DNA of 43,560 nt from a virus. Positions 2,783 through 41,140 of this stretch are shown piece after piece. The stretch spans positions 1-43,560 of IMG/VR virus record IMGVR_UViG_3300017527_000399, one strand, 5' to 3'. Position numbers and translations under genes: made by a program. Positions within the stretch are counted from its first letter, which is position 1. Each line of letters opens with the position of its first letter. The notes below the pieces were generated by a model. That model ran no database searches, had not been told where the DNA came from, and saw only the letters and a list, made by a program, of their open reading frames with translations.

Positions 2783-2791
2783 GGAGAGAAG

Positions 2792-2902
2792 ATGAAGAAA
2801 AAAGAAGTCAAGAAAGAAGTAAAAGTTGAAATCCCAAAAGAACCACAATTAGCACGCGGGAAGACGATTGGTGAAGGAAAAGAAGCACAAAAGATAGCAT
2901 GA
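2792..2902 (+). CDS. Hypothetical 36-residue basic peptide
   Basis: A good ribosome site (AAGGAGAGAAG) immediately follows the TerL stop. The peptide starts MKKKEVKKEVKVEIP and is strongly basic. Its stop overlaps the next start as ATGA. The function is unknown; the signals rather than any similarity support it as a gene. Confidence 0.5.
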   Translation: MKKKEVKKEVKVEIPKEPQLARGKTIGEGKEAQKIA

Positions 2903-3258
2903 ACAAAAACTATGAAAGGATGACACGGGTATACAGACTCTTTGCTGTGGGGGATTACGATTTCTCTGAGAAAGCATTTAATGATATGTATGCTTACGAA
3001 ACCCATGGAGAAGGGGGATTCGGGAAGATATTCACCCCTACAGACAACGGGTATTTTATTGGAAAAAAACTACTAAACATCACAGTATCCATGTGGATGG
3101 AACGCATGAACACCCCCGGGTGGTACTACTTCTTAAAAGAGTTATATCAAGAGTTCCCTACGTGGTGGTTAGACAAGATTTTCAAGAATGTTATTAACAA
3201 GAAACGCAAATTCTATCAAGAACATGGGATTGAGTTTGACGAAACTTTTAAACAATAA
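2899..3258 (+). CDS. Hypothetical protein between TerL and portal
   Basis: This 119-residue product is rich in aromatic residues (for example GWYYFLKELYQEF and TWWLDKIFKNV). It has no signal peptide or clear membrane span and no recognised fold. The ATGA overlap with the preceding peptide sets the start. Its place between TerL and portal suggests a packaging- or head-related role, but that is inference from position only. Confidence 0.6.
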   Translation: MNKNYERMTRVYRLFAVGDYDFSEKAFNDMYAYETHGEGGFGKIFTPTDNGYFIGKKLLNITVSMWMERMNTPGWYYFLKELYQEFPTWWLDKIFKNVINKKRKFYQEHGIEFDETFKQ

Positions 3259-3376
3259 GAATGTTGAGGGACATATTTATAAAAGCGACCTTGAACGATG
3301 GATTGGTGTCCCCCTTACATACCAAAAATATCTTGAATTAAGGGAAGAGCTGGAACATGAAACTAACAGAAATTGA
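3224..3376 (+). CDS. Possible small protein overlapping portal start
   Basis: The frame extends from 3188 to 3376; the ATG at 3224 gives 50 residues. The part after the upstream stop (KSDLERWIGVPLTYQKYLE) looks like a natural amphipathic sequence, and without it the 98 bp before the portal gene would be unexplained. It overlaps the upstream gene by 35 nt and the portal by 20 nt. The start is uncertain. Confidence 0.4.
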   Translation: MGLSLTKLLNNKNVEGHIYKSDLERWIGVPLTYQKYLELREELEHETNRN

Positions 3377-5210: not shown

Positions 5211-5222
5211 TGCCTCTCTATA
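5203..5222 (+). repeat. Left copy of the repeat flanking the homing endonuclease
   Basis: AAACATAATG followed directly by CCTCTCTATA. The same two 10-mers reappear at 5586-5608, separated by 3 extra bases. This copy holds the portal stop and the start codon of the inserted endonuclease gene. Confidence 0.75.
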
Positions 5223-5593
5223 TATCTTCAGAGAAAATAGCTTATCTTGGTGGAATTATTGATGGAGAAGGTTGTATTGTTCTGCGCAAATCTCGTCAAA
5301 GCGGAACACATTTATGCAGAGTTATGATTACTAATTCAGATGAAGGAATACTAAATGAGTGTAGGTCAATTCTTCATGGATTAGGTATATATTTTATAGA
5401 GTATAAAAATAAAAATAGTAGATGTACTGAAATCGAAATATGCAGAATATTAGAAGCAAAAGCACTTCTAGAGAAAGTGTTTCCGTATCTATATTCCTAC
5501 AAACGAGAAAAAGCACTTAGTTTTCTCCAATATGTTACAAATTATACACACGATAGGTTGGGAAGAAAACTCAACAGAAGAAAGAAAACATAA
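5210..5593 (+). CDS. LAGLIDADG homing endonuclease, free-standing
   Basis: This 127-residue protein has one LAGLIDADG-type motif (YLGGIIDGEG, residues 12-21), so it would be expected to work as a homodimer. Known single-motif enzymes cut long DNA sites and spread their own gene by recombination repair. The gene lies exactly between the portal and the zinc-ribbon gene and begins with the same MPLY codons as that gene. A 20-nt repeat flanks it. Its codon use (many ATA, AGA and GTA codons) is more AT-rich than its neighbours. Both points suggest recent insertion. Whether it is active is unknown; the acidic residue of the motif (D18) is present. Confidence 0.88.
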   Translation: MPLYISSEKIAYLGGIIDGEGCIVLRKSRQSGTHLCRVMITNSDEGILNECRSILHGLGIYFIEYKNKNSRCTEIEICRILEAKALLEKVFPYLYSYKREKALSFLQYVTNYTHDRLGRKLNRRKKT

Positions 5594-5608
5594 TGTGCCC
5601 TCTCTATA
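5586..5608 (+). repeat. Right copy of the repeat flanking the homing endonuclease
   Basis: AAACATAATG (5586-5595) and CCTCTCTATA (5599-5608), the same two 10-mers as at 5203-5222 with TGC between them. This copy contains the endonuclease stop and the rebuilt start codon of the zinc-ribbon gene. Confidence 0.75.
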
Positions 5609-5961
5609 CTTATGAGTGTACGATGTGCGGGGAAGAATTTGACGAGTTCCATATCGTTGAAGAGATGCACAACGCAGTACATTGCGGGGAGAAAGCGATC
5701 AAGTTACTTTCCAAGGCCAGTATAGGACATGGTTTACAAGTTAAAGATTCAAAAGGGACACCGATATGGTTCCCTAAAGACGATTCACCGTATTTCGACA
5801 GAGCACTACAACGCCCGTTCAAGAGTAGAAAGGAAAAAAAAGAGTACATGAACCAGAACAAACTCATTATGGACGGGAGCACCAACCCCTCAAAGTGGTC
5901 GGAACTATCGGGCGACATGAGGGATAAAACATATAGAAAAAAAATACAAGCAGAGGAGTAG
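5593..5961 (+). CDS. FmdB-type zinc-ribbon protein
   Basis: The 122-residue product opens like FmdB/YHS-type zinc ribbons (PLYTYECTMCGEEFDEF) with C9-x-x-C12. The second half of the ribbon shows only C31 (HCGEKAIKLL) where the family normally has a C-x-x-C pair, so metal binding may use His30 or be altered. Cys2 is an extra residue in the start codons rebuilt after the endonuclease insertion. The C-terminal 60 residues are basic and not recognised. Small zinc ribbons near phage head genes are common, but their role is not established. Confidence 0.75.
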   Translation: MCPLYTYECTMCGEEFDEFHIVEEMHNAVHCGEKAIKLLSKASIGHGLQVKDSKGTPIWFPKDDSPYFDRALQRPFKSRKEKKEYMNQNKLIMDGSTNPSKWSELSGDMRDKTYRKKIQAEE

Positions 5962-5965
5962 AAAA

Positions 5966-6109
5966 ATGAAATTGAAGGAAACCCAACCAAACCATTTACG
6001 AACTCAGAGGGCTCCCAAAAAATCACCTGGTTCAGCGAGGGTCACACCTCAACCTCAAGGGGATGCCAAACAAAGAGGAACACCGAATAAGAACGTCAGG
6101 TTAAAATGA
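5966..6109 (+). CDS. Hypothetical small basic protein
   Basis: This 47-residue product is rich in Pro, Gln, Lys and Arg and likely disordered (RAPKKSPGSARVTPQPQG). The ribosome site GAGGAGTAGAAAA is good, and ATGA overlaps the next start. Function is unknown. Confidence 0.55.
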   Translation: MKLKETQPNHLRTQRAPKKSPGSARVTPQPQGDAKQRGTPNKNVRLK

Positions 6110-6378
6110 GCACAATTACCATAAAGATCCCAGAGAACAAAATGCAAAATGCGCTCAACAAGGGATTTATGCGTAAGCTCACTCTTTTAGAAGCCTATCT
6201 CAAGAAAAAGAAAAGGCAAGACCCTGAAATATCTATGTTAAAGCAACAGATAAGAGAGATGAAATCCCTGAAGGACACGTTAAGCTCAAAGGAAGCAACG
6301 AAGATAAAGCAAGACCAGGGTTTAATTGTGGAAGCATTAAGCAGTATGAAAAAAATCAGGATACCAAGTCCAAGTTAA
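6106..6378 (+). CDS. Hypothetical helical protein
   Basis: The 90 residues are mostly Lys/Glu/Leu/Gln in coiled-coil-like spacing (residues 20-85). There is no Cys and no signal peptide. It starts by ATGA overlap. It precedes the scaffold gene and may be a minor head or assembly factor, but this is positional inference only. Confidence 0.55.
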   Translation: MSTITIKIPENKMQNALNKGFMRKLTLLEAYLKKKKRQDPEISMLKQQIREMKSLKDTLSSKEATKIKQDQGLIVEALSSMKKIRIPSPS

Positions 6379-6387
6379 AGGAGAAAA

Positions 6388-6747
6388 ATGAAAAGATTAA
6401 TTATTCTAGTATTAATCGTTTTCTTAGCAACCCCTGCATTTGCAGAAATAAAAGAAACCCAAAAGAACCAAATCTACAACCAGCCCGGAACGAGTTATAA
6501 AACAACCGCTATCAGGGAACACACCCATCCTTATGAAGACACCTATCTAAGCAACACCGATAACCAGAGAACAGGTGCCGAGGCGGGTGTAGGCGTGGAT
6601 TTATTACTTTTCAAGTTCGGGGAAAACGCTAAGAACCTAAAGAAAGTCAAGTTAGAATTAAAGAAAGACCTTATTGATATGGACAGAATGAGCGGATACC
6701 TGGTTGCAGAAGTAGATGTTTCCAGTGTCTTTGCTTTTCTGCAGTAA
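6388..6747 (+). CDS. Exported protein of the head cluster, unknown role
   Basis: The 119-residue product begins with a textbook Sec signal peptide: basic MKR, a Leu/Ile/Val core and a cleavage site after ATPAFA (about residue 19). The mature part has a Lys-rich helix (about 80-95) and ends VSSVFAFLQ. It lies directly before the scaffold gene with an AAGGAGAAAA ribosome site. A signal peptide is unexpected this deep in a head cluster. This is the first of a dozen such genes. Confidence 0.75.
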   Translation: MKRLIILVLIVFLATPAFAEIKETQKNQIYNQPGTSYKTTAIREHTHPYEDTYLSNTDNQRTGAEAGVGVDLLLFKFGENAKNLKKVKLELKKDLIDMDRMSGYLVAEVDVSSVFAFLQ

Positions 6748-6795
6748 GTACCAACCATTAACCACGTCCACTATGACGTAAAAAGAGGAGGAATG

Positions 6796-7506
6796 ATGGT
6801 AGAAGAAATACAGGACGAAAACACTGTAGACCCGTCCACTACGGAAACTGAACAATCGGAAGCAACCGAGGAACAAGCTGTTCAGGAAGAGCAATCCATA
6901 CCGTACGACAGGTTCAAAGAGGTCATCGACCAAAAGAACCAAGCCGCCCAAGAAGCCGAGCAATGGCGACAGCAGGCGCAAGTATTAACGGACAAACTAT
7001 CTCAACCCAATGCACCAGCCGCGACGAAACAAGAGATAGATTTAATCCAAAAGTACGGTGCACAAGACCCAGCCACCCGAGAGTTCTTAAGGGAGCTCAA
7101 AGGTGAGATGCGGAAAGAAGCCCAAAAAGTAGGTGAGGAACTTTCTGCTCCCATCTTACGGGAGAACGAAGCATTACGCAGGACTATTGCAAGTATTCAG
7201 GAAAAGCAGTTCCGTCAAGAGAATAGTGACGTTAAACCTAATTCCCCTGAAGAAAAAGAAATAGCGCAATATGTTTCTCTGGGTATGTCTCTTGACAAAG
7301 CCACTATGGCGGTCATGGGGACTAAACGGATTGAGGAAGCCAAAAAAACAGGAAAAGTAAGCACAACAAAGAAAACACAACAAAAAGTTCAAGCCAATCT
7401 TGAACGGACATCAGTCCCCTCTGACACCAGTATCCCCTCAGAGACACCGTCTTACAGGGATGAAATACGGCAAAAGTTAGAGACAGATTGGGATGGAACT
7501 TTGTAA
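6796..7506 (+). CDS. Capsid scaffold protein
   Basis: The roughly 236-residue product is acidic at its N terminus (EETEQ-type repeats), followed by a long Gln/Glu/Lys coiled coil (about 40-160), and ends in a charged tail RDEIRQKLETDWDGTL. This is the pattern of phage scaffold proteins, which guide procapsid assembly and then leave. It sits immediately before the major capsid gene, as expected. Two ATGs are adjacent (6793 and 6796); the GGAGG spacing favours the second. Confidence 0.82.
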   Translation: MVEEIQDENTVDPSTTETEQSEATEEQAVQEEQSIPYDRFKEVIDQKNQAAQEAEQWRQQAQVLTDKLSQPNAPAATKQEIDLIQKYGAQDPATREFLRELKGEMRKEAQKVGEELSAPILRENEALRRTIASIQEKQFRQENSDVKPNSPEEKEIAQYVSLGMSLDKATMAVMGTKRIEEAKKTGKVSTTKKTQQKVQANLERTSVPSDTSIPSETPSYRDEIRQKLETDWDGTL

Positions 7507-7517
7507 GGAGTTAGCAA

Positions 7518-8492
7518 ATGGCAGTAGGTAATAGTAGTTTTACTACCTTAATTACCACTACTTTACAGAATCATGGTAAAGAGATATTCGATGCTATCTC
7601 AACAAACAATGCGTTATATTGGATGTTAAGACAAGCAGGCAATATCAAAGTAGTTGGTGGTGGTAGGAAATTCACTCATCCGATTATCTACAAAACTAAC
7701 CCTTCATTTGCGATGTATTCTAAGTTGGACACCATTGGTCTTAACGTGACCGATGCAATCACAAGAGCAGAGTATGATATCAAAGTTGCTGCGGGTTCTA
7801 TTGTTTTGTCTGATGTAGACTTAGCGATGAACGCTGGCAATAAAGAAAGATTACTCGAACTTGCTGATGTTAAAAGGTTAGAAGCTGAGATTTCAATGTC
7901 CGAGTTAATGGGCGACCAGGCTTTTGGAGATGGTACAGGCTCAAACGACTTCGGCGGGTTACAGTTTTTAATCCATGAGACACCAACTGGTCAAAGTAAT
8001 GTCGGTGGGATAGATTGTACCGCTAGTACAGCATTAACGTATTGGCACAACTATACCAACACATCGGCAATTACGGCCTTCAATACATCCGATACAGGGG
8101 TAAAAGCGTGGAATGATATCTTAAATAATACAATTTACGGGCGTAGAGGCCCGCGGGCTGTATTTACGACTAAGACAATCTACGGTTTATATGAGATCGG
8201 ATTGACGAGCAATATTCGATATGCTCAAACAGACCTTGCAGATGCAGGGTTTAGACACCTTCAATACACAACGTTACCAGTACTTTTCGATGATAATTGT
8301 CCTACGGGCAATACGTACTTCGTAGATACTGATAGCTTATGGTTGCAGGTATTAGCACAAGGGAACATGAAAATGTTCAAATTCCAAGAAAAAGATGACC
8401 AACTTGCGAAATCCGCATTAATGGCTTTGTACGGTAATTTAACCACAGGGTCTAGGAGAACGCAAGGGGTTCAAACTAACACAACGGCTTAA
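7518..8492 (+). CDS. Major capsid protein, HK97-like fold
   Basis: The 324-residue product resembles podovirus/P22-group coat proteins. It has an N-terminal segment NALYWMLRQAGNIKVVGGGR leading into beta strands, then a long helix-rich spine (LADVKRLEAEISMSELMGD). Near the C terminus is FKFQEKDDQLAKSALMALYG, typical of coat proteins of this type. There is no signal peptide. The ribosome site AAGGAGTTAGCAA is good. It follows the scaffold and precedes an exported decoration-like protein. Confidence 0.9.
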   Translation: MAVGNSSFTTLITTTLQNHGKEIFDAISTNNALYWMLRQAGNIKVVGGGRKFTHPIIYKTNPSFAMYSKLDTIGLNVTDAITRAEYDIKVAAGSIVLSDVDLAMNAGNKERLLELADVKRLEAEISMSELMGDQAFGDGTGSNDFGGLQFLIHETPTGQSNVGGIDCTASTALTYWHNYTNTSAITAFNTSDTGVKAWNDILNNTIYGRRGPRAVFTTKTIYGLYEIGLTSNIRYAQTDLADAGFRHLQYTTLPVLFDDNCPTGNTYFVDTDSLWLQVLAQGNMKMFKFQEKDDQLAKSALMALYGNLTTGSRRTQGVQTNTTA

Positions 8493-27688: not shown

Positions 27689-27785
27689 CCCTGTAATTGT
27701 GCAGGTTAACGGAGTGGATTACTTCTGCCTAGAGGAACGTGCGTTCACTGCGGTCTTGCAAGAGGCGAGTAGAGACTGTGATTAA
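27528..27785 (+). CDS. Lipoprotein candidate (Rz1/o-spanin-like)
   Basis: The frame contains VRLWISVICVLLVTSCAMFS (about residues 24-43): a basic residue, a hydrophobic core and a lipobox VTSC. The mature part would be about 45 residues with FCLEERAFTAVLQEASRDC. An outer-membrane lipoprotein at the end of a late cluster and overlapping another gene fits an o-spanin. It lacks the Pro-rich body typical of Rz1. The true start is unclear. Confidence 0.55.
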   Translation: MRNMRLYGLNGNRQSAGIVLRGFVRLWISVICVLLVTSCAMFSRKEKVDGIPVDPVIVQVNGVDYFCLEERAFTAVLQEASRDCD

Positions 27786-27793
27786 AAAAAAGC

Positions 27794-27822
27794 TTGACAC
27801 GAAAAACGATTTATGCAATAAT
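27794..27822 (+). promoter_or_regulatory. Sigma70-type promoter P1
   Basis: TTGACA at 27794-27799, a 17-nt spacer and AATAAT at 27817-27822. This is a near-consensus promoter at the end of the late cluster. Its predicted start, near 27829, is a few bases before the pseudoknot-forming RNA. Confidence 0.72.
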
Positions 27823-27828
27823 GAATCA

Positions 27829-27942
27829 TAATGAAAAACCCGGATAGAAACAAAAGAATAATTTACCGAAGCAAGTTAAGAGGCAGCGTCGAGAGATGTT
27901 GTCTTTTTCATCTATCCGGGATCTTGCTTCGGTATTTTTTTT
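27829..27942 (+). ncRNA. Structured small RNA with crossing stems (pseudoknot)
   Basis: Two perfect inverted repeats cross. Stem A is CCCGGATAGA (27839-27848) with TCTATCCGGG (27911-27920). Stem B is TACCGAAGCAAG (27864-27875) with CTTGCTTCGGTA (27923-27934). Stem B is followed by eight T (27935-27942). Within the loop, AAGAGGCAGC (27878-27887) can pair with GTTGTCTTTTT using some G-U pairs. The unit is flanked by promoter P1 upstream and P2 downstream. It looks like a small RNA gene or a switch that ends at its own terminator. No known family is recognised. Confidence 0.72.
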
Positions 27943-27945
27943 ATC

Positions 27946-27973
27946 TTGACAAATCCTTTTAAAGAGTTAAAAT
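27946..27973 (+). promoter_or_regulatory. Sigma70-type promoter P2
   Basis: TTGACA at 27946-27951, a 16-nt spacer and TAAAAT at 27968-27973. It begins four bases after the T run that ends the upstream RNA. It points towards the early genes from 28050 onwards, and would start near 27980. Confidence 0.68.
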
Positions 27974-28007
27974 CGAGTTATGCAACCAACAAAACATAGG
28001 AGATACG

Positions 28008-28039
28008 GGGGGATAGGTTAAACTGTCCCCCTTTTTTTT
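28008..28039 (+). terminator. Terminator/attenuator in the early leader
   Basis: GGGGGA (28008-28013) pairs with TCCCCC (28026-28031) and is followed by eight T (28032-28039), a standard intrinsic terminator only about 30 nt after the P2 start. The five G that follow (28040-28044) can instead pair with the same C run. That gives two exclusive hairpins, so the leader could control read-through into the early genes. It could also simply terminate P1/late transcription. Confidence 0.68.
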
Positions 28040-28049
28040 GGGGGTAGCG

Positions 28050-31370: not shown

Positions 31371-32070
31371 GAATATCCTGTGGATAAAGTTGGAAATAAG
31401 GCTGTTAAATGACTCAAGATTCTTCACTCTTACCCCCGATGCACAGCGAGTTTACCTCAAAATGTTGCTGTTAGCAGGTCAAAATAAGAACAAAACGTGC
31501 AAAAATTTACAAATTTTAGGGTCCTGTTTACGAGAGTGCCTCATGCCAAGTGCATTAGAAAGTTGCATCTTAGAGATAAAAACCAATTTCCCTAAGTTTA
31601 GAGAAAGCAACAACTTCTATTATTTTCAAGGGTTCTCAACAAAGCACAACTGGGTTTCCCCAAGGAACTCCCAGGGAACTCCAAAGGATTCGCAAGATAA
31701 GAATAGAATAGATAAGATAAGAGAAGAGAAGATAAGAGAAGAAGGAGAGCAGAAAAAAGTAAAGAGTGTTTTTAAGGGAGAGGATATTGTTTTTCCTATT
31801 CAATACCTGAACACCCTTACAAACAGCACTTTTTCTATAAAGAGCCGCGCAACTTTAGAAATGGTGCGGGCGCGGTACAAAGAGGGGTATACGAAAGAAG
31901 ACTTTAAGACAGTAATTGATAAAAAGGCGGCGGAGTGGGTAAAAGACGAGCGTATGTGTAAGTACTTGCGTCCCAAGACCTTATTTAACGCAACGAACTT
32001 TGAGAACTATTTAAACCAAAAGGGAAAGGTGGAGACGTATGATGACCTCAAACGAAAATTTAACTTATAA
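31360..32070 (+). CDS. Replication initiator, DnaD/Phg_2220_C-like
   Basis: This 236-residue protein has an N-terminal winged-helix-like region (FFTLTPDAQRVYLKMLLLAG), a charged linker and a C-terminal region FKTVIDKKAAEWVKDERMCK followed by YLRPKTLFNATNFENYL. The last part matches the conserved phage C-terminal domain (Phg_2220_C) of replisome organiser proteins that load the host helicase. The DNA coding the linker is a run of GATAAGA repeats, which may double as the origin. Confidence 0.78.
   Translation: MPYKNILWIKLEIRLLNDSRFFTLTPDAQRVYLKMLLLAGQNKNKTCKNLQILGSCLRECLMPSALESCILEIKTNFPKFRESNNFYYFQGFSTKHNWVSPRNSQGTPKDSQDKNRIDKIREEKIREEGEQKKVKSVFKGEDIVFPIQYLNTLTNSTFSIKSRATLEMVRARYKEGYTKEDFKTVIDKKAAEWVKDERMCKYLRPKTLFNATNFENYLNQKGKVETYDDLKRKFNL
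31694..31752 (+). repeat. GATAAGA repeats inside the replication gene
   Basis: Repeated AGATAAGA/AGAGAAGA units make an almost pure purine tract with few T and no C. It encodes the charged linker (NRIDKIREEKIREEGEQ). In lambda-like initiators the origin lies within the initiator gene as iterons, so this tract is an origin candidate; low complexity of the linker is the simpler explanation. Confidence 0.55.
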
Positions 32071-34019: not shown

Positions 34020-34231
34020 TTAAAGAGATAGAAAAATTAGAAGCAGAGTACGGAATCACCGCTACGAAAGAAGGGTTTAAAGAAGCTATTTACGCCCTAC
34101 ATACCAAGAAGCTCATAGAGGTATTGGAGAGGTTAAAGAAAGAAAGTTTTAAAGAATATATGGACGACGAGGTTGTTCTTGTGAGCCACATCCAATCCGA
34201 AATAGACAAGGCGAGAAAGGGGTTGAAATGA
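34016..34231 (+). CDS. Hypothetical protein, paralogue A
   Basis: The ATG at 34016 overlaps the Lar stop as ATGA, giving 71 residues. The second part (ALHTKKLIEVLERLKK ... IDKARKGLK) recurs in the next gene, showing a recent duplication. Unknown function. Confidence 0.6.
   Translation: MIKEIEKLEAEYGITATKEGFKEAIYALHTKKLIEVLERLKKESFKEYMDDEVVLVSHIQSEIDKARKGLK
34094..34141 (+). repeat. Direct repeat, copy 1
   Basis: A 48-nt stretch starting GCCCTACATACCAAGAAGC matches 34393-34440 at about nine positions in ten. It codes the shared ALHTKKLIEVLERL segment of the two neighbouring genes. Confidence 0.8.
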
Positions 34232-34554
34232 AAAAAGAAATTCAAGACCTTAAGAATTTAGTTGAGTTGCAAAGTACAAAGGGAAATTATGACCAGTCAG
34301 ATTATATGCGTGGATTAGCGAATGGGTTAATAATGGCGTTAGCGATTTTTGAGCATAAAGAACCCAATTTTTTTGAGCCACTAAATCAAAATGCCCTACA
34401 TACCAAAAAACTCATAGAGGTATTGGAGAGGCTAAGAAAATCCATGAAGTTAAACCCGAACCATTATTGGACAATAAAGGAATCTAATCAAGTACATTCT
34501 CATAATGAGTTTGTTGATTCCAAAATAGACAAGGCGAGAAAATCTCTAGGGTAG
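34228..34554 (+). CDS. Hypothetical protein, paralogue B
   Basis: The 108-residue product has a new N terminus (KEIQDLKNLVELQSTKGN; YMRGLANGLIMALAIFEH) and then the segment shared with paralogue A (ALHTKKLIEVLERLRK ... IDKARKSLG). Its TAG stop lies inside the 5' arm of the structured element at 34549. The ATGA overlap gives the start. Confidence 0.6.
   Translation: MKKEIQDLKNLVELQSTKGNYDQSDYMRGLANGLIMALAIFEHKEPNFFEPLNQNALHTKKLIEVLERLRKSMKLNPNHYWTIKESNQVHSHNEFVDSKIDKARKSLG
34393..34440 (+). repeat. Direct repeat, copy 2
   Basis: Second copy of the 48-nt repeat (first at 34094-34141). Differences are mostly silent or conservative (Lys/Arg), suggesting the shared peptide is under selection. 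Confidence 0.8.
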
Positions 34555-34668
34555 GTGGCGTTCTGGAAAACGCATTGGAGGATGGAGGGAAATAGCTCCT
34601 TATGAAGTTCTTCTCTTAAACACAAGAACCCGCTAATTGGGGCTGCAGGTTCAAATCCTGCCCTACCT
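34549..34668 (+). ncRNA. Structured element E1, tRNA-like
   Basis: GGGTAGG (34549-34555) pairs with CCTACCT (34662-34668). Two bases later is a hairpin GCGTT/AACGC with loop CTGGAA. Directly before the 3' arm is GCAGG-TTCAAAT-CCTGC, a perfect tRNA T-arm. The middle is too long for a tRNA (120 nt in all). It holds GTTCTT/AAGAAC around CTCTTAAACAC, whose CTCTTAA resembles a Lys(CUU) anticodon loop. It could be a degenerate or expanded tRNA, or one of the element family at 39046-39806. Confidence 0.6.
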
Positions 34669-34691
34669 TAGAGATGAAGGGAGTTAGGGGA

Positions 34692-34892
34692 ATGAAAACC
34701 AATGAACATCAGGACAGAGGACAATGTCAAGTCTGTAAAAAGGTAAATCACACCTCTGTCTGGAAGGTATTTTTGCAAGAAGGGTGGTTTCGTGGTGATG
34801 ATGTTTATTTAGGAAAATTTTGTAAACGATGTAAGACAAAAGAAAATATTGAAAAAAGAATCCAAGAGATACGAGCGAGGACTAACCCATGA
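34692..34892 (+). CDS. Small zinc-ribbon protein
   Basis: ATG 34692 after TTAGGGGA gives 66 residues with two Cys pairs (GQCQVCKKV and KFCKRCKTK), a likely zinc ribbon. An upstream ATG at 34674 is possible. The stop overlaps the next start as ATGA. Unknown role. Confidence 0.6.
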   Translation: MKTNEHQDRGQCQVCKKVNHTSVWKVFLQEGWFRGDDVYLGKFCKRCKTKENIEKRIQEIRARTNP

Positions 34893-35020
34893 ACCTATCC
34901 GACCAAGAAGTATGTGTGAAGTGCAAAAAAAGACCTGTTTATAAATACAAAAGAAAAAAGGGTAAGCTATGTGCGACCTGTATTTTAGAAAATCTTAAAA
35001 AGTTTGTGGGGTTGACATGA
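34889..35020 (+). CDS. Small zinc-ribbon protein
   Basis: The 43-residue product has VCVKCKKRP and KLCATCILE, two CxxC pairs in a basic context. ATGA overlaps link it to both neighbours. It probably folds as a mini zinc ribbon; function unknown. Confidence 0.6.
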   Translation: MNLSDQEVCVKCKKRPVYKYKRKKGKLCATCILENLKKFVGLT

Positions 35021-35310
35021 GTTTATCCGACCAACTAAAACAATTTCTGCCGAAAGAGAAAAGAATACCAAGAAAAGGAGAACCTATTGGTGGGACATGG
35101 GGAGACCCGATTGAAAACAAAGGCTACAATGTTGCCCTTAAAGGCGTTAAAGAATCTCTTGATGTTGAGGTGGATGAAAATAAATTATATTCTTTTATTT
35201 GCCAATGGACAGAAGGAAAAGACATGAATGAAGTTGGATTTAGATTTAGACTTGCCCAATCCATATCTTCAAACCTAAAGATAAGAAAGATTAACCAACA
35301 GGGGGCGTGA
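35017..35310 (+). CDS. Hypothetical early protein
   Basis: The 97-residue product starts MSLSDQLKQFLPKEKRI; the preceding gene starts MNLSDQE, a small likeness. No motif is recognised. It starts by an ATGA overlap. Confidence 0.58.
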   Translation: MSLSDQLKQFLPKEKRIPRKGEPIGGTWGDPIENKGYNVALKGVKESLDVEVDENKLYSFICQWTEGKDMNEVGFRFRLAQSISSNLKIRKINQQGA

Positions 35311-35624
35311 TGAGGAAAAGGGAAACTAAACAAAACGGAAACGATAAATTATCTTGTTGGTTTGGATTGTCTTATGCGTCTTTTTTAACATTACCAAGAG
35401 TTATGATGGAGTCTATGCCTGATGAATGGCAAGGAAAAATGGCTGATTTACTTAACGAATCAGATGATACCTTTTTTAATTTTCCTTATTTTAAATATCG
35501 TGTTCAGCGAGTTGAGGGTAATAAACTTAGTAAATTTCCAAAATGGCTTCTTAATTATAGGCATCCAGACTATAAGATGATTAAATCTTTTAAGGAGAAG
35601 CACTATGACACCCAAAACAGATGA
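35310..35624 (+). CDS. Conserved-looking phage hypothetical protein
   Basis: The 104-residue product includes LSCWFGLSYASFLTLPRVMM, MPDEWQGKMADLLNESDD and FKYRVQRVEGNKLSKFPKWL. The style is familiar from phage early proteins, but no function is known to me. GTG 35307 or ATG 35310 can start it. The ribosome site CAGGGGGCG is fair. Confidence 0.62.
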   Translation: MRKRETKQNGNDKLSCWFGLSYASFLTLPRVMMESMPDEWQGKMADLLNESDDTFFNFPYFKYRVQRVEGNKLSKFPKWLLNYRHPDYKMIKSFKEKHYDTQNR

Positions 35625-35907
35625 GAGAAAATTCAATCCACAATCTTTTGATTCTAGGGTTTGGGCAAAAGAATTTATGGGGTTGTATAATAAAAATATA
35701 ATGAAAAGAAATCATCTTTGGATTGATGAAGGTCTGATGGTTGGCTGGTTTGCCAATGCAATTATGGCTGGATTTGATGAGGCACATAGGAGAATTTCCA
35801 AAGACTTCATCTCTAAAGAAAGAGTGCGGGGGTTGAAGATGAATATAACATCACAGAATCCTTGGAAGAAAGAATTTAACCAACGCATCGACGACCTTAT
35901 TGTATAG
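35605..35907 (+). CDS. Hypothetical early protein
   Basis: The 100-residue product begins after TAAGGAGAAGCACT, with a Trp-containing helical part (LWIDEGLMVGWFANAIMAGF). Not recognised. It overlaps the upstream gene by 20 nt. Confidence 0.58.
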   Translation: MTPKTDERKFNPQSFDSRVWAKEFMGLYNKNIMKRNHLWIDEGLMVGWFANAIMAGFDEAHRRISKDFISKERVRGLKMNITSQNPWKKEFNQRIDDLIV

Positions 35908-35942
35908 GTATTGTATAGGTATTCGGAACACAAGGAGATGAG

Positions 35943-36116
35943 ATGGACGCTAAAGAGATAAAAAGTTTAATCAGGGATAACCTTAGGATGTGTAAAGAAG
36001 AGCTTAAAGACGCCAAGAAAGGTGGTGACCCTATTGTATCTTATTTAGCAGGGGCAGTAGATATTCTAAAAGATTTGTTATTCTCTATCAAAGAGCAAGA
36101 AAAGAATAGTATTTAA
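35943..36116 (+). CDS. Hypothetical small helical protein
   Basis: The 57-residue product (MDAKEIKSLIRDNLRMCKEE...) is helical, with a good ribosome site (AAGGAGATGAG). Function unknown. Between it and the preceding gene is a short tandem TATTGTATAGG (two copies, about 35898-35920). Confidence 0.55.
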   Translation: MDAKEIKSLIRDNLRMCKEELKDAKKGGDPIVSYLAGAVDILKDLLFSIKEQEKNSI

Positions 36117-36136
36117 TATTTCTCTAAGTAATACAT

Positions 36137-36172
36137 TTATGTTATTTACGGAAACAGGAGGCGTGATGAAGA
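36137..36172 (+). repeat. Leader repeat, copy 1
   Basis: The stretch starting TTATGTTATTTACGGAAACA, then the ribosome site and start GGAGGCGTGATGAAGAAA, recurs at 36464-36499 with few changes. It forms the leader of the exported protein at 36166. Confidence 0.75.
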
Positions 36173-36432
36173 AATTAATTTTTATTATTTTATTTTTAAT
36201 CTTTTGCCCTTCGTTACAAGCAAAAGATTTTGAATCCAAAAGGTTTAAAGCCATATTCACAGTAACTTTTAACAGTTTGACACTAGAAGAAATAGCGAAT
36301 AAGGAAATATTGATTAATAAAAGATTCAAAGATGCTTGTGCTATTGATTTAGATATTAAAGAAAGTCGCGATGAAGATGAAGGTGGGGTGTTGATGTGGG
36401 ACGCGGGGGCAGGGGCAATAGTCGTCGATTAA
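36166..36432 (+). CDS. Exported early protein
   Basis: ATG 36166 follows GGAGGCGTG. The 88-residue product has a signal peptide (MKKLIFIILFLIFCPSLQA) and a mature beta/alpha part (FKAIFTVTFNSLTLEEIANK). It ends MWDAGAGAIVVD. It is an exported protein in the early region, hence perhaps acting on the host envelope; the role is unknown. Confidence 0.65.
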   Translation: MKKLIFIILFLIFCPSLQAKDFESKRFKAIFTVTFNSLTLEEIANKEILINKRFKDACAIDLDIKESRDEDEGGVLMWDAGAGAIVVD

Positions 36433-36463
36433 AAATGAGGAAATTTATCGGATGGAATTACCA

Positions 36464-36499
36464 TTATGTTATTTACAGAAACAGGGGGGTGTGATGAGG
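36464..36499 (+). repeat. Leader repeat, copy 2, without a full gene
   Basis: TTATGTTATTTACAGAAACA then GGGGGGTGTGATGAGGAAA. The ATG that follows (36493) opens only 13 codons, so the copy has lost its gene or was duplicated without it. Confidence 0.7.
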
Positions 36500-36550
36500 A
36501 AAAGAAAGACCATAATACGTAATATCGTAAACTAGTCTTGACTAAAAATT

Positions 36551-36769
36551 ATGAGATTAATAAATTTACACTTTACATTATTCATATTTCTTTTTTGTAT
36601 CTACTCCTGCACCAGACCGACGTGGGAACCACCAGGAGAGAAACCAGAGTGGAACTGGCTTAGATGGTATCAAGTCCAGCACAACGCCACACATTCTAAT
36701 TATACAGTAGAGATACATGATTGTTATGAAGAGTACCATGAAAGCTGTGGAGAGGAGCCGAAGGAGTGA
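36551..36769 (+). CDS. Small lipoprotein
   Basis: The 72-residue product begins with a lipoprotein signal (LHFTLFIFLFCIYSCTRP, lipobox IYSC). The mature part is Trp/Glu/Pro-rich (WEPPGEKPEWNWLRWYQ) with two more Cys near the end. No strong ribosome site; TTGACT lies just upstream. Possible superinfection-exclusion or envelope protein, by inference. Confidence 0.6.
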   Translation: MRLINLHFTLFIFLFCIYSCTRPTWEPPGEKPEWNWLRWYQVQHNATHSNYTVEIHDCYEEYHESCGEEPKE

Positions 36770-36772
36770 GTG

Positions 36773-37210
36773 ATGAGAGAGATTAAATTTAGGGCTTGGG
36801 ATACTAAAGATAACAAAATGAGGAAAGTGATTTCAATCGAATACGGATTATCTACAGATACAAGTTTAGATTTATCACAATGTATTTTTATAGGATTGTC
36901 AAGAGTTATTGGAGAACGATTTAACTTATTATGCAAACCACCAAGAATACATCTTATGCAATACACAGGACTCAAAGGCAAGAATGGCAAAGAGATTTAT
37001 GAGGGGGACATAGTTAAAACAGGGAATAAAGACTCCTTGTATCAATGGGTGTGGGAAGCTCCGTATTTTGAACTTAGAAGAATAAAAGATAACTTTTCAG
37101 CTATTTATATAGCAGATAAAGGAGTTGCAAGCATGGAAGTTATTGGTAATATATACGAAAATCCCGAATTTTTAAATTTACAGAAAGGGAGCCAAGATGA
37201 AGACGAATGA
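36773..37210 (+). CDS. YopX-family protein
   Basis: The 145-residue product shows the YopX signature: REIKFRAWDTKDNKM at the start, LMQYTGLKGKNGKEIYEGDI in the middle and EVIGNIYENPEFL at the end. YopX proteins are common in phages of many hosts; their function is not settled. GTG 36770 is an alternative start. Confidence 0.88.
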   Translation: MREIKFRAWDTKDNKMRKVISIEYGLSTDTSLDLSQCIFIGLSRVIGERFNLLCKPPRIHLMQYTGLKGKNGKEIYEGDIVKTGNKDSLYQWVWEAPYFELRRIKDNFSAIYIADKGVASMEVIGNIYENPEFLNLQKGSQDEDE

Positions 37211-37457
37211 AATAGTTCTCACAATAGTTCAATTAGCTGCACCGATATTTTGTTTTGCAGTAGGACTTGTCCCACAAGGGATATTCTTAACGTGTTGGAT
37301 AGTCTTTTTTGGTATTGCAGAAGTTGTGGCAAAAACCAAGACAGGCAAGACACTTTCCCAACATGTATGGGCCAAACCGTTATGGATAAGGGTGGTGTTA
37401 TCGTTAATAATGATAGCGGGGATGATAGCGTTAGGATACCATTTTATCCTAGGATAA
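37197..37457 (+). CDS. Small polytopic membrane protein
   Basis: The 86-residue product has two to three hydrophobic stretches (IVLTIVQLAAPIFCFAVGLV; IFLTCWIVFFGIAEVVA; VVLSLIMIAGMIALGYHFIL). The start overlaps the YopX gene by 14 nt after AAAGGGAGCCAAG. Its role is unknown; a holin would be possible by topology, but it lies in the early region. Confidence 0.6.
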   Translation: MKTNEIVLTIVQLAAPIFCFAVGLVPQGIFLTCWIVFFGIAEVVAKTKTGKTLSQHVWAKPLWIRVVLSLIMIAGMIALGYHFILG

Positions 37458-37469
37458 GGTGGCGATTCT

Positions 37470-38471
37470 ATGAGATATTTCAGTATGTTTTCAGGAATAG
37501 GAGGGTTTGAACTTGGGATACGACAAGCCGAAATTAAATCCAAAGATAGCTCCAACAGTAAGAGCGGAACATCACAGCACCTTAGACGTTCACTTTGTAT
37601 TGGTTTCTCCGAAATCAACAAATACGCAATCCAAATCTACAAAAAACACTTTAAAGGACATAAAAACTATGGAAACGCAAGAGACATTGTTTGGGAACAA
37701 GTGCCGGACTTCGACTTTCTCGTTGCCGGATTCCCTTGTCAATCTTTTTCAATCGCAGGAAAGAGAGGCGGATTTGACGATACTAGAGGAACTTTATTCT
37801 TTGAAATCGCAAGGGCTTTATCCGTTAAAAGACCTAAGCTATGCCTATTGGAGAACGTCAAAGGATTGTTATCACACGATAAAGGGGCAACCTTTGGAAC
37901 CATCCTTGCAACCCTTTCTGACTTGGGGTATTTTTTGCAATGGCAGGTACTTAACAGCAAGGATTTCGGTGTCCCACAGAATAGGGAACGAGTGTTCCTT
38001 ATCGGACATCTTAGAGGAACAAGTAGACCAGAAGTATTTCCTCTCTCCCAAAGCAGTAAAGGCAATCTTAAATACTCAGGGGGAGTCATTTCAGCCAGAG
38101 AACAGTGGCTCAAAGACGGAAAGACAAACAGCCGAAACTTCTCGCAAGGACAAAGAATCTACAGCGAAGAAGGGATAAGCCAGACACTTGCGGGTAACGC
38201 TGGTGGACAAGGGGGAAAGACCGGACTATACCAGATAGATAAAATAAACAGAGCTGTGCGAGCTGGCGGTCGTGGAAGCAAGACAGAAAAACACAGGTGG
38301 GATTTAGTTGGCGGAATCAGACGACTTACTCCTACAGAATGTGAAAGACTACAAGGATTTCCCGATGGATGGACAGAAGGGGTAAGCGATACCCAAAGAT
38401 ATAAATGTTTAGGAAATGCGGTTACGGTTAATGTGGTTCAAGCAATTATAGCGAGACTTGATAAAGAATGA
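37470..38471 (+). CDS. C5-cytosine DNA methyltransferase
   Basis: The 333-residue product has all main motifs: FSGIGGFELG (7-16, SAM binding), GFPCQSFS with the catalytic C90, ENVKGLL (128-134), QNRERVFLIGH (170-180), a target-recognition region (about 190-290) and CLGNAVTVNV near the end. It methylates cytosine in a specific DNA sequence, probably to protect phage DNA from restriction. A second protein-like frame overlaps residues 67-236. No partner restriction enzyme is seen. Confidence 0.93.
   Translation: MRYFSMFSGIGGFELGIRQAEIKSKDSSNSKSGTSQHLRRSLCIGFSEINKYAIQIYKKHFKGHKNYGNARDIVWEQVPDFDFLVAGFPCQSFSIAGKRGGFDDTRGTLFFEIARALSVKRPKLCLLENVKGLLSHDKGATFGTILATLSDLGYFLQWQVLNSKDFGVPQNRERVFLIGHLRGTSRPEVFPLSQSSKGNLKYSGGVISAREQWLKDGKTNSRNFSQGQRIYSEEGISQTLAGNAGGQGGKTGLYQIDKINRAVRAGGRGSKTEKHRWDLVGGIRRLTPTECERLQGFPDGWTEGVSDTQRYKCLGNAVTVNVVQAIIARLDKE
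37669..38178 (+). CDS. Protein encoded in another frame within the methyltransferase gene
   Basis: From ATG 37669 (AAAGGA upstream) this frame codes 169 residues; the stop-free frame begins at 37507. The C-terminal part NGRYLTARISVSHRIGNECS followed by LSDILEEQVDQKYFLSPKAV resembles, from memory, a phage protein often found near cytosine methyltransferases (a YLT...LSxILE...KYxLS pattern). The whole stretch is inside the methyltransferase gene in the +1 frame. Motifs VI and VIII of the enzyme lie in the overlap, so both frames seem constrained. Function unknown. Confidence 0.55.
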   Translation: METQETLFGNKCRTSTFSLPDSLVNLFQSQEREADLTILEELYSLKSQGLYPLKDLSYAYWRTSKDCYHTIKGQPLEPSLQPFLTWGIFCNGRYLTARISVSHRIGNECSLSDILEEQVDQKYFLSPKAVKAILNTQGESFQPENSGSKTERQTAETSRKDKESTAKKG

Positions 38472-38518
38472 AAAAACCAAAAAGACTTAAACAACCTAGC
38501 CCTCAAAGGAGACAAGGA

Positions 38519-38707
38519 ATGATAGACCTAAAAGAAATGTATATGAAAAGAGCAGAAGAAATATCAATGGAATTGCATGGCGTTGAGTTCTACAACTTAA
38601 AAGAACCGATGAAAAGCCTTGTGTACGAACAGGCAGAACGTGATGTTATTGATGGAGTTACTGACCATGCAGACTTTTTGAGGAAAGCAAGCAAAGAAAA
38701 TTGTTAG
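38519..38707 (+). CDS. Hypothetical small protein
   Basis: ATG 38519 follows AAAGGAGACAAGGA and gives 62 acidic, helical residues (YMKRAEEISMELHGVEFYNL). The frame also opens at 38468 as an ATGA overlap with the methyltransferase stop, adding 17 basic residues. Both starts are possible. Not recognised. Confidence 0.58.
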   Translation: MIDLKEMYMKRAEEISMELHGVEFYNLKEPMKSLVYEQAERDVIDGVTDHADFLRKASKENC

Positions 38708-38723
38708 CTCAAGGAGATAAATA

Positions 38724-38891
38724 ATGAGAGTGGATAGCCAAGAACATAGGTGGTATGTATATATTGGCAAAGTGGCTCATAAATACTGTAAATCTCCGAG
38801 AATAGCGAGCTTTGGTCAAGCACCTTGCAAAAAATGTGTGGAGAGATGGAGGGCTGTTTTTAATTTCGTTAGACCTTTTACAAGGAGATAA
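38724..38891 (+). CDS. Hypothetical small Cys-containing protein
   Basis: The 55-residue product has a strong ribosome site (AAGGAGATAAATA). It is basic with KYCKSPRIASF and APCKKCVERWR, suggestive of a small zinc ribbon. Function unknown. Confidence 0.58.
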   Translation: MRVDSQEHRWYVYIGKVAHKYCKSPRIASFGQAPCKKCVERWRAVFNFVRPFTRR

Positions 38892-38893
38892 GA

Positions 38894-39046
38894 ATGGAAA
38901 AAAGAAAAGACCCTGAACGTCAAATCATAGACAACCTAGAATCCTCTAAAGACAACTACGTTAAGTTAAGGATAGACAATAAGATTAAGTACATACCCAT
39001 AGACAAAATAGAAAAGTTAGTTATAAGAGGGATAAAGATATTATAG
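38894..39046 (+). CDS. Hypothetical small basic protein
   Basis: The 50-residue product starts after AAGGAGATAAGA. It is Lys/Ile-rich (NYVKLRIDNKIKYIPIDKIE). Its TAG stop is immediately followed by the 5' arm of structured element E2. Function unknown. Confidence 0.58.
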   Translation: MEKRKDPERQIIDNLESSKDNYVKLRIDNKIKYIPIDKIEKLVIRGIKIL

Positions 39047-39151
39047 GGCGAGTGGTGTGGAAACCTGACAACTGGTAGTCAATCAGAAATGCAGAACGAC
39101 ATTGGTAACCAACCCGAAATAGTTCATTGTCGCAGACCAACTGCCTCGCCC
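39046..39151 (+). ncRNA. Structured element E2
   Basis: GGGCGAG (39046-39052) pairs perfectly with CTCGCCC (39145-39151). After the 5' arm come TG and a small hairpin (GGT-GTGGAA-ACC). Just before the 3' arm is GCAG-ACCAA-CTGC. It is preceded by TAG and followed by TTAAAAGAT. This is the same plan as E1, E3 and, partly, E4. No T-loop consensus, so not an ordinary tRNA. Confidence 0.62.
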
Positions 39152-39165
39152 TTAAAAGATAACTA

Positions 39166-39288
39166 GGGCGGTGTGACGTTCTAGCGTCAAAGGGTAGACA
39201 TACGAACAACAAGTGGTCTAGGGGTAACTAGAAATAAACCCTAGCATTTGCGTCGGTGGAAGTAGGGTGGGGAATCCTGCCACCGCCC
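39166..39288 (+). ncRNA. Structured element E3
   Basis: GGGCGGTG (39166-39173) pairs with CACCGCCC (39281-39288). Next is the hairpin TGACG-TTCTAG-CGTCA. A middle stem CTAGGG/CCCTAG follows. Just before the 3' arm, GTAGG can pair with CCTGC. An alternative pairing, CGGTGG with CCACCG, would compete with the closing stem. It is preceded by TAG and followed by TTAAAAGAT. No protein-coding gene fits this stretch. Confidence 0.62.
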
Positions 39289-39297
39289 TTAAAAGAT

Positions 39298-39395
39298 TAG
39301 GAGCAATGGATAAGTGCTTGGATTTCCGCGTCGGTTTTCTAAGCAGTCCATTTAAGGGGGTGTTTACAAGGGTAAATGCCCCTGCTCCCCTAAAA
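39298..39395 (+). ncRNA. Structured element E4
   Basis: GGAGCA (39300-39305) pairs with TGCTCC (39383-39388), and flanking TTAGG with CCTAA gives an alternative register. Inside are ATGGA/TCCAT enclosing TGCTT/AAGCA, and an 11-bp hairpin GGGGTGTTTAC/GTAAATGCCCC with loop AAGG. TAAAAGAT follows. The result is a three-way-junction-like RNA just before a small gene at 39412. Confidence 0.6.
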
Positions 39396-39411
39396 GATGG
39401 GGGTGAAAAAC

Positions 39412-39660
39412 ATGAGAATAAAAGACATACTTGCAAGACACAATGTAGTGAAAACCCCTGAATTAACAAAAGATTTAGTCAACTGGGTCATTACTCAAAA
39501 AAGAGCTGACCGAGCCAAGTTTTATTCACGGCTTAAAAAATTAAAAGAAATTCTTTTAAGCGATTTAGACCTACGCTCTTCATCTGCTATTTCACTAAGT
39601 CTTAAGTTAAACCGATTTATTGAACGAGAACAAAAATATCTACAAAAAATGGATGGATAA
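39412..39660 (+). CDS. Hypothetical basic helical protein
   Basis: ATG 39412 after GGGGGTGAAAAAC gives 82 residues, helical and basic (TKDLVNWVITQKRADRAKFY). Flanked on both sides by structured elements (E4 and E5). It is a candidate RNA- or DNA-binding protein, by charge only. Confidence 0.6.
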   Translation: MRIKDILARHNVVKTPELTKDLVNWVITQKRADRAKFYSRLKKLKEILLSDLDLRSSSAISLSLKLNRFIEREQKYLQKMDG

Positions 39661-39806
39661 GGGGGGCTAAAAGTTCTTTGAATATAACAACAACCAACAA
39701 TAGTTGGGTCAGAAGTTATCATTCTGATTTCCTTGCCTTTCGGCATTGGAGAGAGAGCGACGTTGCCTGACTAGCGAAAGGTCAATGAGCCACGGTAGCC
39801 CCCTTT
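39659..39806 (+). ncRNA. Structured element E5
   Basis: AAGGGGGGCTA (39659-39669) pairs over 11 positions with TAGCCCCCTTT (39796-39806), with one G-U pair. Inside are CCAAC-AATA-GTTGG, TCAGAA/TTCTGA and TGCC-TTTC-GGCA hairpins. It begins at a stop codon (TAA) and is followed by AAAAACAT. It is the largest of the family and directly precedes the glycosyltransferase gene. Confidence 0.6.
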
Positions 39807-39826: not shown

Positions 39827-41140
39827 ATGATTGAATACATTTACATACCTATAATTTTATTACTCTATATCAGGCAATATAAATTCTGTCAGGCGATAGA
39901 CGATCCCGTTCCGCGGGAAGGATACTTAGTCGAGTTCCCCCGTAAAGTAGATCCGTCATACTATGATAAGCGTAAACCTTTACTTTGGACTATTACCAAC
40001 ATAACCGTATTTATTTTCACCTGCATAGCGATACATTTATTATTTGATTGGAGAGTTGCATTACTCTACGCCGTCCATCCGTGTAACACACAGAGCGTGG
40101 TATGGGGTAGGACAGGGAATTATTACATGTCTACGTGTTTATTAACCCTCATGGCTCTTCTCAGTCACGGGGAATGGTGGGGGATGCCGTTTTACTTAGC
40201 CAGCCTACATTCAACACTGAACGGTTTACCCCTGCCGTTTCTAGCGATACTCAACCCCATGTATTTATGGTATTTTCCTATTCTGGCGTTGTTCTTATTT
40301 GACCCACGCGGTAAGTTCAGGACACATTTCAAAGAGAGGGTGAAGGGTCATGAAGGCGTAGGAATTAAAGCAGGTGTGTTCAGGTTAAGACATTTATTCA
40401 TTATCCCCAAGGTCTTAGCGTACTATTTAAGATTACAGATCTATCCTTCGAGGTTAGGTTTCTTTCACGAATTTGGCGAAAGAGAAGCCCAAGAAAAAAG
40501 CCTCGCCGTTCCAAACATCCATTTTATAGACTCTACATTATTTATTATTATCTGGGTTTATGTCGGATACCTTACAAACCCGCTGGCGTGTTTAGGCTGG
40601 TTCTTATTTACTGGTTTATGGTCTGGCTATATCCAACTAGGTCAGTTTGTGTCTGAGAGGTACTTACCTTTACCCAACGTATTTTATTGTGTTATTGTTG
40701 CGGGAGTGATACAGAACCCCGTTATATTCACGATCTTATGCACTCTTTACTTTGCTAGGTCTTGGGAGTACACGCCTGCTTATCGGCACAACCTAAACTT
40801 ATTTACTTATTCAATCAAATCATTCCCACACGCGTCCGGCAACCATACTAATTTATATTCATATTATCTACATAAGGACGAACCCTTAAAAGCGATCAAT
40901 CCCCTTTACCATGCTATTTTAAACACTTATGGAAACAAATCCTATTTATGGATGGAGTTAGCGAGCACTTACGGCAAGCTCCAGCGTCCTAGAGAGGCGT
41001 TAAAGTGTACCGAAAACGCGTTAGGGGAATGTTTTCCTAAAGACAAGGATACTTTAATCAAGCAAAGAGATGAGATCAAAGAGAAAGTAAGGAAGATCAA
41101 CGTCTTACAGACCCGCATGGAAAAAGAATTAACGCGTTGA
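39827..41140 (+). CDS. TMTC-like GT-C glycosyltransferase with TPR-like tail
   Basis: This 437-residue polytopic membrane protein has LLYAVHPCNTQSVVWGRTGN (79-98), the hallmark HPxxTxxVxW-GR motif of the TMTC/DUF1736 GT-C family, which in animals includes O-mannosyltransferases acting on exported proteins. An Asp pair (D25-D26) sits after the first membrane span, where GT-C enzymes keep catalytic acids. About eight spans follow. The C-terminal 90 residues (SYYLHKDEPLKAINPLYHAI; SYLWMELASTYGKLQRPREA) look like TPR repeats. Its stop overlaps a convergent gene by 12 nt. Substrate unknown. Confidence 0.75.
   Translation: MIEYIYIPIILLLYIRQYKFCQAIDDPVPREGYLVEFPRKVDPSYYDKRKPLLWTITNITVFIFTCIAIHLLFDWRVALLYAVHPCNTQSVVWGRTGNYYMSTCLLTLMALLSHGEWWGMPFYLASLHSTLNGLPLPFLAILNPMYLWYFPILALFLFDPRGKFRTHFKERVKGHEGVGIKAGVFRLRHLFIIPKVLAYYLRLQIYPSRLGFFHEFGEREAQEKSLAVPNIHFIDSTLFIIIWVYVGYLTNPLACLGWFLFTGLWSGYIQLGQFVSERYLPLPNVFYCVIVAGVIQNPVIFTILCTLYFARSWEYTPAYRHNLNLFTYSIKSFPHASGNHTNLYSYYLHKDEPLKAINPLYHAILNTYGNKSYLWMELASTYGKLQRPREALKCTENALGECFPKDKDTLIKQRDEIKEKVRKINVLQTRMEKELTR

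Follow-up and report, generated by a model that had tools for sequence, protein, structure and literature searches.

tRNA-Leu-like phage RNAs with a covarying frame and a hypervariable centre in place of the anticodon arm

Introduction

tRNA-like RNAs that act outside translation are few, and they are mostly understood one by one. YrlA RNA (RF02553), which is 90-150 nt in length, combines a long stem formed by its paired ends with a tRNA-like domain consisting of D, T and acceptor arms (PMC8394870). The tRNA-Other of Bacillus cereus is tRNA-like and not used in translation (PMC3399842), the function of the phage T4 stable RNAs C and D is still unknown (PMC9697503), and in the engineered tRNA scaffold for recombinant RNA a tRNA shell carries a foreign RNA in the place of the anticodon (PMC3753655). 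Here, we describe the RNA element E1 of the IMG/VR virus record IMGVR_UViG_3300017527_000399, analysed over its full 43,560 bp (the window), along with its relatives in other phages and four further elements of the same record, E2 to E5. All five elements lie on the plus strand. The window belongs to a tailed phage with terminase, portal and major capsid genes at positions 1232-8492. An initial annotation had proposed that E1 to E5 are members of one family of cloverleaf-like RNAs with a shared frame.

Results

Judged by its sequence, E1 is a tRNA-Leu-type RNA whose position counts are those of a tRNA. The 5′ strand of its acceptor, GGGTAGG (34549-34555), pairs over 7 bp with the 3′ strand CCTACCT (34662-34668), and the discriminator position is occupied by a T. 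Pairing continues outward to a closing stem of 14 bp (ATCTCTAGGGTAGG/CCTACCTTAGAGAT, 34542-34675), which was present as annotated but longer than had been noted. T8-G9 (34556-34557), found in nearly all members of the family and corresponding to invariant columns of alignment A3, is followed by the D-arm GCGT TCTGGAAA ACGC with GG in its loop (34558-34573), then by A26, about 70 nt, T48 and the T-arm GCAGG TTCAAAT CCTGC (34645-34661). The centre of about 70-71 nt (34574-34644) stands where a tRNA would have its anticodon arm and variable region and is the hypervariable part of the family. The tRNA-like plan suspected in the initial annotation is thus borne out by a true D-arm and T-arm in E1 and by dozens of members in other phages. 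In a search of the whole window, model R1, built from a 42-member alignment in which E1 is itself one of the training rows, matched E1 at 34549-34668 with 65.4 bits (E 6e-13). ARAGORN detected neither a tRNA nor a tmRNA in the window, and no Rfam 15 family reached its gathering score there. A tRNA-Arg reading of E1, obtained from ARAGORN with introns allowed and thresholds lowered, was rejected; such settings give noise everywhere.

Phages with an about 57-70% identical major capsid protein were obtained, few of which cover the early region (two, designated G015 and G014). In G015 (locus L043), the architecture of E1 is found in the gap between two co-directional open reading frames (ORFs), with a 16-bp closing stem, the D-arm TGGCGAAGTCGGGACAAGACGC and the T-arm GTAGG-TTCAAAT-CCTGC, after which a ribosome-binding site follows. 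The G014 element (L040:8370-8490; 31880-32060 in the oriented genome) fits the frame as well, but the sequence also forms an ORF of 43 codons that has a good ribosome-binding site. Although included among the 42 alignment rows, the element was treated as ambiguous and not leaned on. Direct repeats, GCAAGGAGGTTAAATA, flank this element.

When E1 and E2-E4 were compared by BLAST with 50,697 phage records, only tRNA T-arm fragments and chance matches were returned, and two other members used as queries gave no matches. The family was accessible by a pattern scan of IMG/VR with TGGCG-N(62-92)-GYAGGTKSAAATCCTRC, the spacing of which excludes ordinary class II tRNAs. Among the 125 pattern matches listed, 39 pair at 6 or more of the 7 acceptor positions and all 39 do so at 7/7, compared to about 0.13 expected by chance (125 x (6/16)^7). 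This pairing rate is independent of how members were selected, whereas the percentage of paired positions within the alignment is partly given by construction since members were chosen for pairing. In a control with the pattern read backwards, no match was obtained in 32 records. The major capsid gene of the window is absent from 32 other element-bearing phage records, and the family is therefore not limited to the lineage of this phage but spread among unrelated ones. A similar pattern applied to 85,000 bacterial and archaeal genomes gave 23 matches, a count that can be compared only roughly with that from viruses as the two patterns differ. Four of these were accepted as members, namely L178 from a Desulfobacteraceae metagenome-assembled genome (MAG), L185 from a Thorarchaeota MAG, L191 from a Maribacter MAG and L197 from a Flavobacterium isolate. 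Most of the remaining matches were chance overlaps with tRNA-Met genes.

Across the 42-member alignment, each of the seven acceptor pairs changes on both sides. The whole structure contains 141 compensatory cells as compared to 37 in shuffles, and the covariation score is 0.63 against 0.16 for shuffled alignments and at most 0.10 when the partner is slid. Selection on structure, which the initial annotation had read from the closing stems of the five elements, is upheld by this covariation of the acceptor in other phages. Further tRNA features are retained. A15-U48 is present in 34/39 members, T48 in 40/42 and the discriminator A (A73) in 24/42, and A14 is also kept. Members are 97-128 nt long, many of them with the D-arm TGGCGGAATTGGTAGACGC. 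About three quarters (33/42) lie more than 1 kb from any ordinary tRNA. An acceptor extended to 10-19 bp occurs in E1, L043, L058, L068, L075, L056 and L201 and is not found in most members. Similarity to tRNA-Leu combined with a lost anticodon arm would also be a property of decaying tRNA pseudogenes. Neutral decay, however, would strike all arms, and here change is confined to the centre: every member retains an intact, covarying acceptor, D-arm and T-arm. Covariation refutes this explanation for the family as a whole, and we give it the least credence of all, although E2 or E3, taken singly, may still be such a pseudogene.

The anticodon arm itself is missing. A 5-bp stem with a 7-nt loop following the D-arm was detected in 0/41 members, and four pairs were formed in 8/41, which is the level of shuffled sequences. 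The same search recovered a canonical anticodon arm in nine of the eleven ordinary class II tRNAs in the fetched loci. With 7-bp acceptor, D-arm and T-arm in cloverleaf register and the decoding stem-loop absent, the RNA cannot decode. The tRNA model RF00005 matches roughly one quarter to one third of the tested loci, with low scores of 29-45 bits, and no other Rfam 15 family covers an element in these loci. Such matches could be accounted for by ordinary phage tRNA-Leu genes with a small intron, the splicing of which restores the anticodon arm, and real archaeal intron-containing class II tRNAs did appear among the rejected matches of the genome scan (L186, L189 and L199). Yet removal of an internal interval restored a Leu, Ser or Tyr anticodon arm in just 2/42 members, and at the 2.3% rate of shuffles about one would be expected. 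The three archaeal tRNAs, used as positive controls, passed the same test without exception (3/3). Moreover, judged on length only, group I introns are far larger than these inserts. The intron explanation is largely refuted by the interval-removal test, and we regard it as very improbable.

In contrast to the constant frame, the centre turns over rapidly. In 62 pairs of members with frames at least 90% identical, identity of the centres was 0.628 as compared to 0.622 for shuffled sequences. L056 and L118 stem from related phages (83-91% identity over several stretches) and have the frame in common. The two elements are preceded by 100 nt and followed by 60 nt of 97% identical sequence, but their centres are unrelated (0.68 versus 0.62 shuffled, p about 0.07), which makes this pair a ready case for how the centre is replaced. 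L078 and L144 share the whole element at 82% identity in surroundings without detected similarity; therefore, elements also move as units. A type II hammerhead ribozyme (43.6 bits) was found at L078:6668-6738, about 1.8 kb from an element.

A stem next to the T-arm, at the site of the class II variable arm, reaches a mean score of 13.2 compared to 9.7 in shuffles and exceeds the shuffled value in 34/42 members. Several centres might in addition form pseudoknots, predicted from single sequences, among them those of L071, L084 and L159; in L159, for instance, GGCAT/ATGCC would pair across GGGAACA/TGTTCCC. Antisense matches between the centres and the genome of the same phage were not above chance. 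These results bear on the idea, also raised in the initial annotation, that the RNAs are tRNA decoys. They would titrate a host enzyme specific for the acceptor/T-arm half, such as a defence nuclease, leucyl-tRNA synthetase (LeuRS), EF-Tu or a modification enzyme, with the centre as a filler or cleavage block. Such a role would suit RNAs that have lost the anticodon arm but still possess the tRNA elbow, the GG of the D-loop, the T-loop and A15-U48, as these do. A filler, on the other hand, needs no strong stems beside the T-arm, and pure anticodon-nuclease decoys should have kept the anticodon arm. Decoys are in our opinion unlikely, though the most serious of the competing explanations.

Elements also occur in arrays. 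L159 carries three members in tandem, separated by spacers of 15 and 7 nt, L058 and L102 carry two each and L148 carries at least six; the tandem block of E2, E3 and E4 in the window thus has parallels. L148 is a 56-kb phage (G020) with its elements distributed over 7 kb, and freshwater-1, a candidate RNA in Rfam, has a match there. Two of the L148 elements are preceded by near-identical ATCTTTGTAGAGGAAATGAAA leaders resembling Bacteroidota promoters.

Closing stems of all five window elements were found at the annotated positions, those of E2 and E3 being 8 and 9 bp in length. A mechanical scan for a closing stem of at least 7 bp combined with a hairpin just after the 5′ arm and a hairpin abutting the 3′ arm matched E1, E2 and E3 exactly and nothing else on the plus strand of the window, in agreement with the composite plan annotated for these three. 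In 20 triplet-shuffled windows the same scan gave 0-4 matches each, or 0-2 if at least 8 bp and 5 G-C pairs were demanded. The tandem arrangement of E2-E4 was likewise found, and no convincing gene covering them was detected. E2 (39046-39151) contains the acceptor GGGCGAG/CTCGCCC, TG, a short D-like hairpin and the T-like hairpin GCAG-ACCAA-CTGC. E3 (39167-39287) has the acceptor GGCGGTG/CACCGCC, which reaches 9 bp when extended to 39165-39289, followed by TG, a D-like hairpin and the T-like hairpin GTAGG-GTGGGGAAT-CCTGC. In an unfiltered search of the kilobase containing E2-E5, they were the top two of 13 R1 matches (17.3 bits, E about 0.001 for E2; 13.7 bits, E about 0.006 for E3), both at the exact tRNA-like frame and neither in the training set. 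The filtered R1 search of the whole window did not find them, and a pattern for the E2/E3 ends had no matches in IMG/VR. Their arms and frame suggest that E2 and E3 are probable diverged members of the E1 family.

E4 (39300-39388), a stable three-way-junction hairpin in the same tandem block, and E5 (39659-39806), which is multi-branched, stable and located behind the stop of ORF 39397-39660, had no meaningful match to R1 in the 1-kb search and may be unrelated stable structures. Consequently, the proposed family of five is reduced by the model to one certain member (E1) and two probable ones (E2, E3), membership of E4 and E5 being unsupported. Integron attC sites were dropped as candidates by eye as the GTTRRRY/RYYYAAC ends are absent. 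Folding z-scores were −1.8, −2.4, −3.6, −4.6 and −5.8 for E1, E2, E3, E5 and E4, respectively, values flattered by element borders that had been set by eye. By folding energy alone, E1 and E2 are unremarkable and E3-E5 are strong. The initial annotation had staked its reading on further members, covariation and folding energies better than those of shuffled sequence. Members and covariation were found, whereas the energy of E1 is no better than shuffled and that of E2 nearly so.

Stop codons mark the 5′ sides of E1, E2 and E5. The 5′ arm of E1 holds the stop of ORF 34228-34554, E2 starts on the TAG of a short ORF and E5 on the TAA of ORF 39397-39660. E1, the G015 element and the L201 element all lie between co-directional ORFs and begin no more than about 10 nt from the stop codon of one of them. 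In 30/39 members, a same-strand ORF of at least 50 aa ends 150 nt or less upstream, a raw proportion uncorrected for random placement. This location is reminiscent of processing punctuation, likewise among the suggestions of the initial annotation, in which tRNA-like structures at stop codons would direct host tRNA enzymes to cut the operon mRNA. However, an ordinary tRNA would suffice for that purpose, and hypervariable centre and tandem copies are left unexplained. Furthermore, some members lie in tRNA clusters. We therefore judge punctuation alone to be improbable, more so than decoys.

Other features of the window were recorded. At 27780-27945, a promoter-like TTGACA...AATAAT precedes an RNA that has a T-run and in which CCGGATAG/CTATCCGG and GAAGCAAG/CTTGCTTC form two interleaved stems. 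In folding it is the most extreme outlier of the window (z −5.5), and it is probably an independent small RNA. A second TTGACA-type promoter, followed by the short hairpin GGGGGGATAGGTTAAACTGTCCCCC and a T-run, is located at 27945-28045. Just upstream of E1, two neighbouring small ORFs contain a repeat (CCCTACATACCAA.AA.CTCATAGAGGTATTGGAGAGG) at 34090-34135 and 34395-34440, a sign of gene duplication. Downstream of E5, positions 39827-41140 encode a protein of 437 aa that is rich in hydrophobic stretches and matches nothing in Pfam or PHROG. G007 has a homologue of it (35% identity) immediately before the terminase (L047:19-936). Protein searches with this ORF and TerL revealed no relative beyond a near-identical 20.8-kb contig that ends before the elements.

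Discussion

We consider it probable that E1 is a tRNA-scaffold RNA, derived from class II tRNA-Leu, matured by host tRNA enzymes and carrying a fast-changing cargo, and we extend this reading with less certainty to E2 and E3. In such RNAs, acceptor, D-arm and T-arm would be kept and the anticodon arm replaced by 50-90 nt of structured, hypervariable RNA. Host RNase P and 3′-end enzymes, including CCA addition, might recognize the frame and cut the RNA from the operon transcript. The tRNA elbow and frame would protect the transcript from nucleases, and the RNAs would serve as stable carriers. Bacterial LeuRS does not read the anticodon, and some members may be charged by it. The central cargo presumably acts on a fast-changing target, and the likeliest candidates are host RNAs or proteins involved in defence or regulation; there was no support for antisense action against the genome of the phage itself.

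Several observations weigh against this interpretation. E1 has a T rather than an A at the discriminator position, making leucylation doubtful for E1 itself, and the 10-19-bp acceptors of E1 and some other members would be an obstacle to ordinary cleavage by RNase P. The long-stem members, E1 among them, may form a separate sub-class that stays uncut. In addition, the folding z-score of E1 is not significant, the R1 scores of E2 and E3 are weak, and identity of the frame among scanned members is partly by construction as the pattern fixed TGGCG and the T-arm.

That the frame stays constant while the centre is hypervariable argues for a rapidly evolving partner, and it suggests that a tRNA shell serves phages as a vehicle for changeable RNA cargo. 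More tentatively, the RNAs may represent a new viral class in which a constant tRNA-Leu shell, matured and protected by host tRNA enzymes, holds a payload swapped or rewritten so rapidly that phages with 97% identical surroundings have nothing of it in common, as expected of RNA weapons or shields against bacteria or rival phages; we find this conceivable rather than probable. By keeping the enzyme-recognized half of tRNA-Leu and discarding the decoding half, the family provides natural separation-of-function tRNAs. Annotation pipelines miss such genes or call them weak tRNAs.

An earlier description was not found in the open-access literature, and an earlier report elsewhere is possible. Apparently, this is a widespread, undescribed group of phage RNAs for which Rfam 15 has no family. 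With class II tRNA-Leu (RF00005) it shares the 7-bp acceptor, T8-G9, D-arm, A15-U48, T-arm and often A73, but it differs by the absent anticodon arm, a length of 97-128 instead of about 85 nt and the hypervariable centre. Replacement of the middle between acceptor, D-like region and T-arm is also known from tmRNA. In contrast to tmRNA, the elements are much shorter and E1 contains G3-C70 instead of G3-U70, and ARAGORN found no tmRNA in the window. The outline of YrlA, whose long basal stem made of the 5′ and 3′ ends binds Rsr/Ro60, recalls E1 with its 14-bp stem and the other long-stem members, whereas most members have no long basal stem. None of seven phage records scored above the gathering score of RF02553 (0/7; 69 bits), the best match being 23 bits (E 4e-4). 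Unlike the elements, tRNA-Other of B. cereus retains a Trp anticodon and belongs to a larger regulatory RNA of the chromosome.

The nearest known phage RNAs are the T4 stable RNAs C and D (species 1 and 2 RNA). They are phage-coded, 119-139 nt in length and located beside tRNA genes, and RNA C has the T-arm CCGGG-TTCGAAT-CCCGG near its 3′ end. Model R1 matched neither of them, and a frame of D-arm and acceptor was not seen in them by eye. Nevertheless, the family may bear on the unsolved function of these RNAs. The engineered tRNA scaffold works alike but is a laboratory construct, whereas the E1 family is natural, viral and hypervariable.

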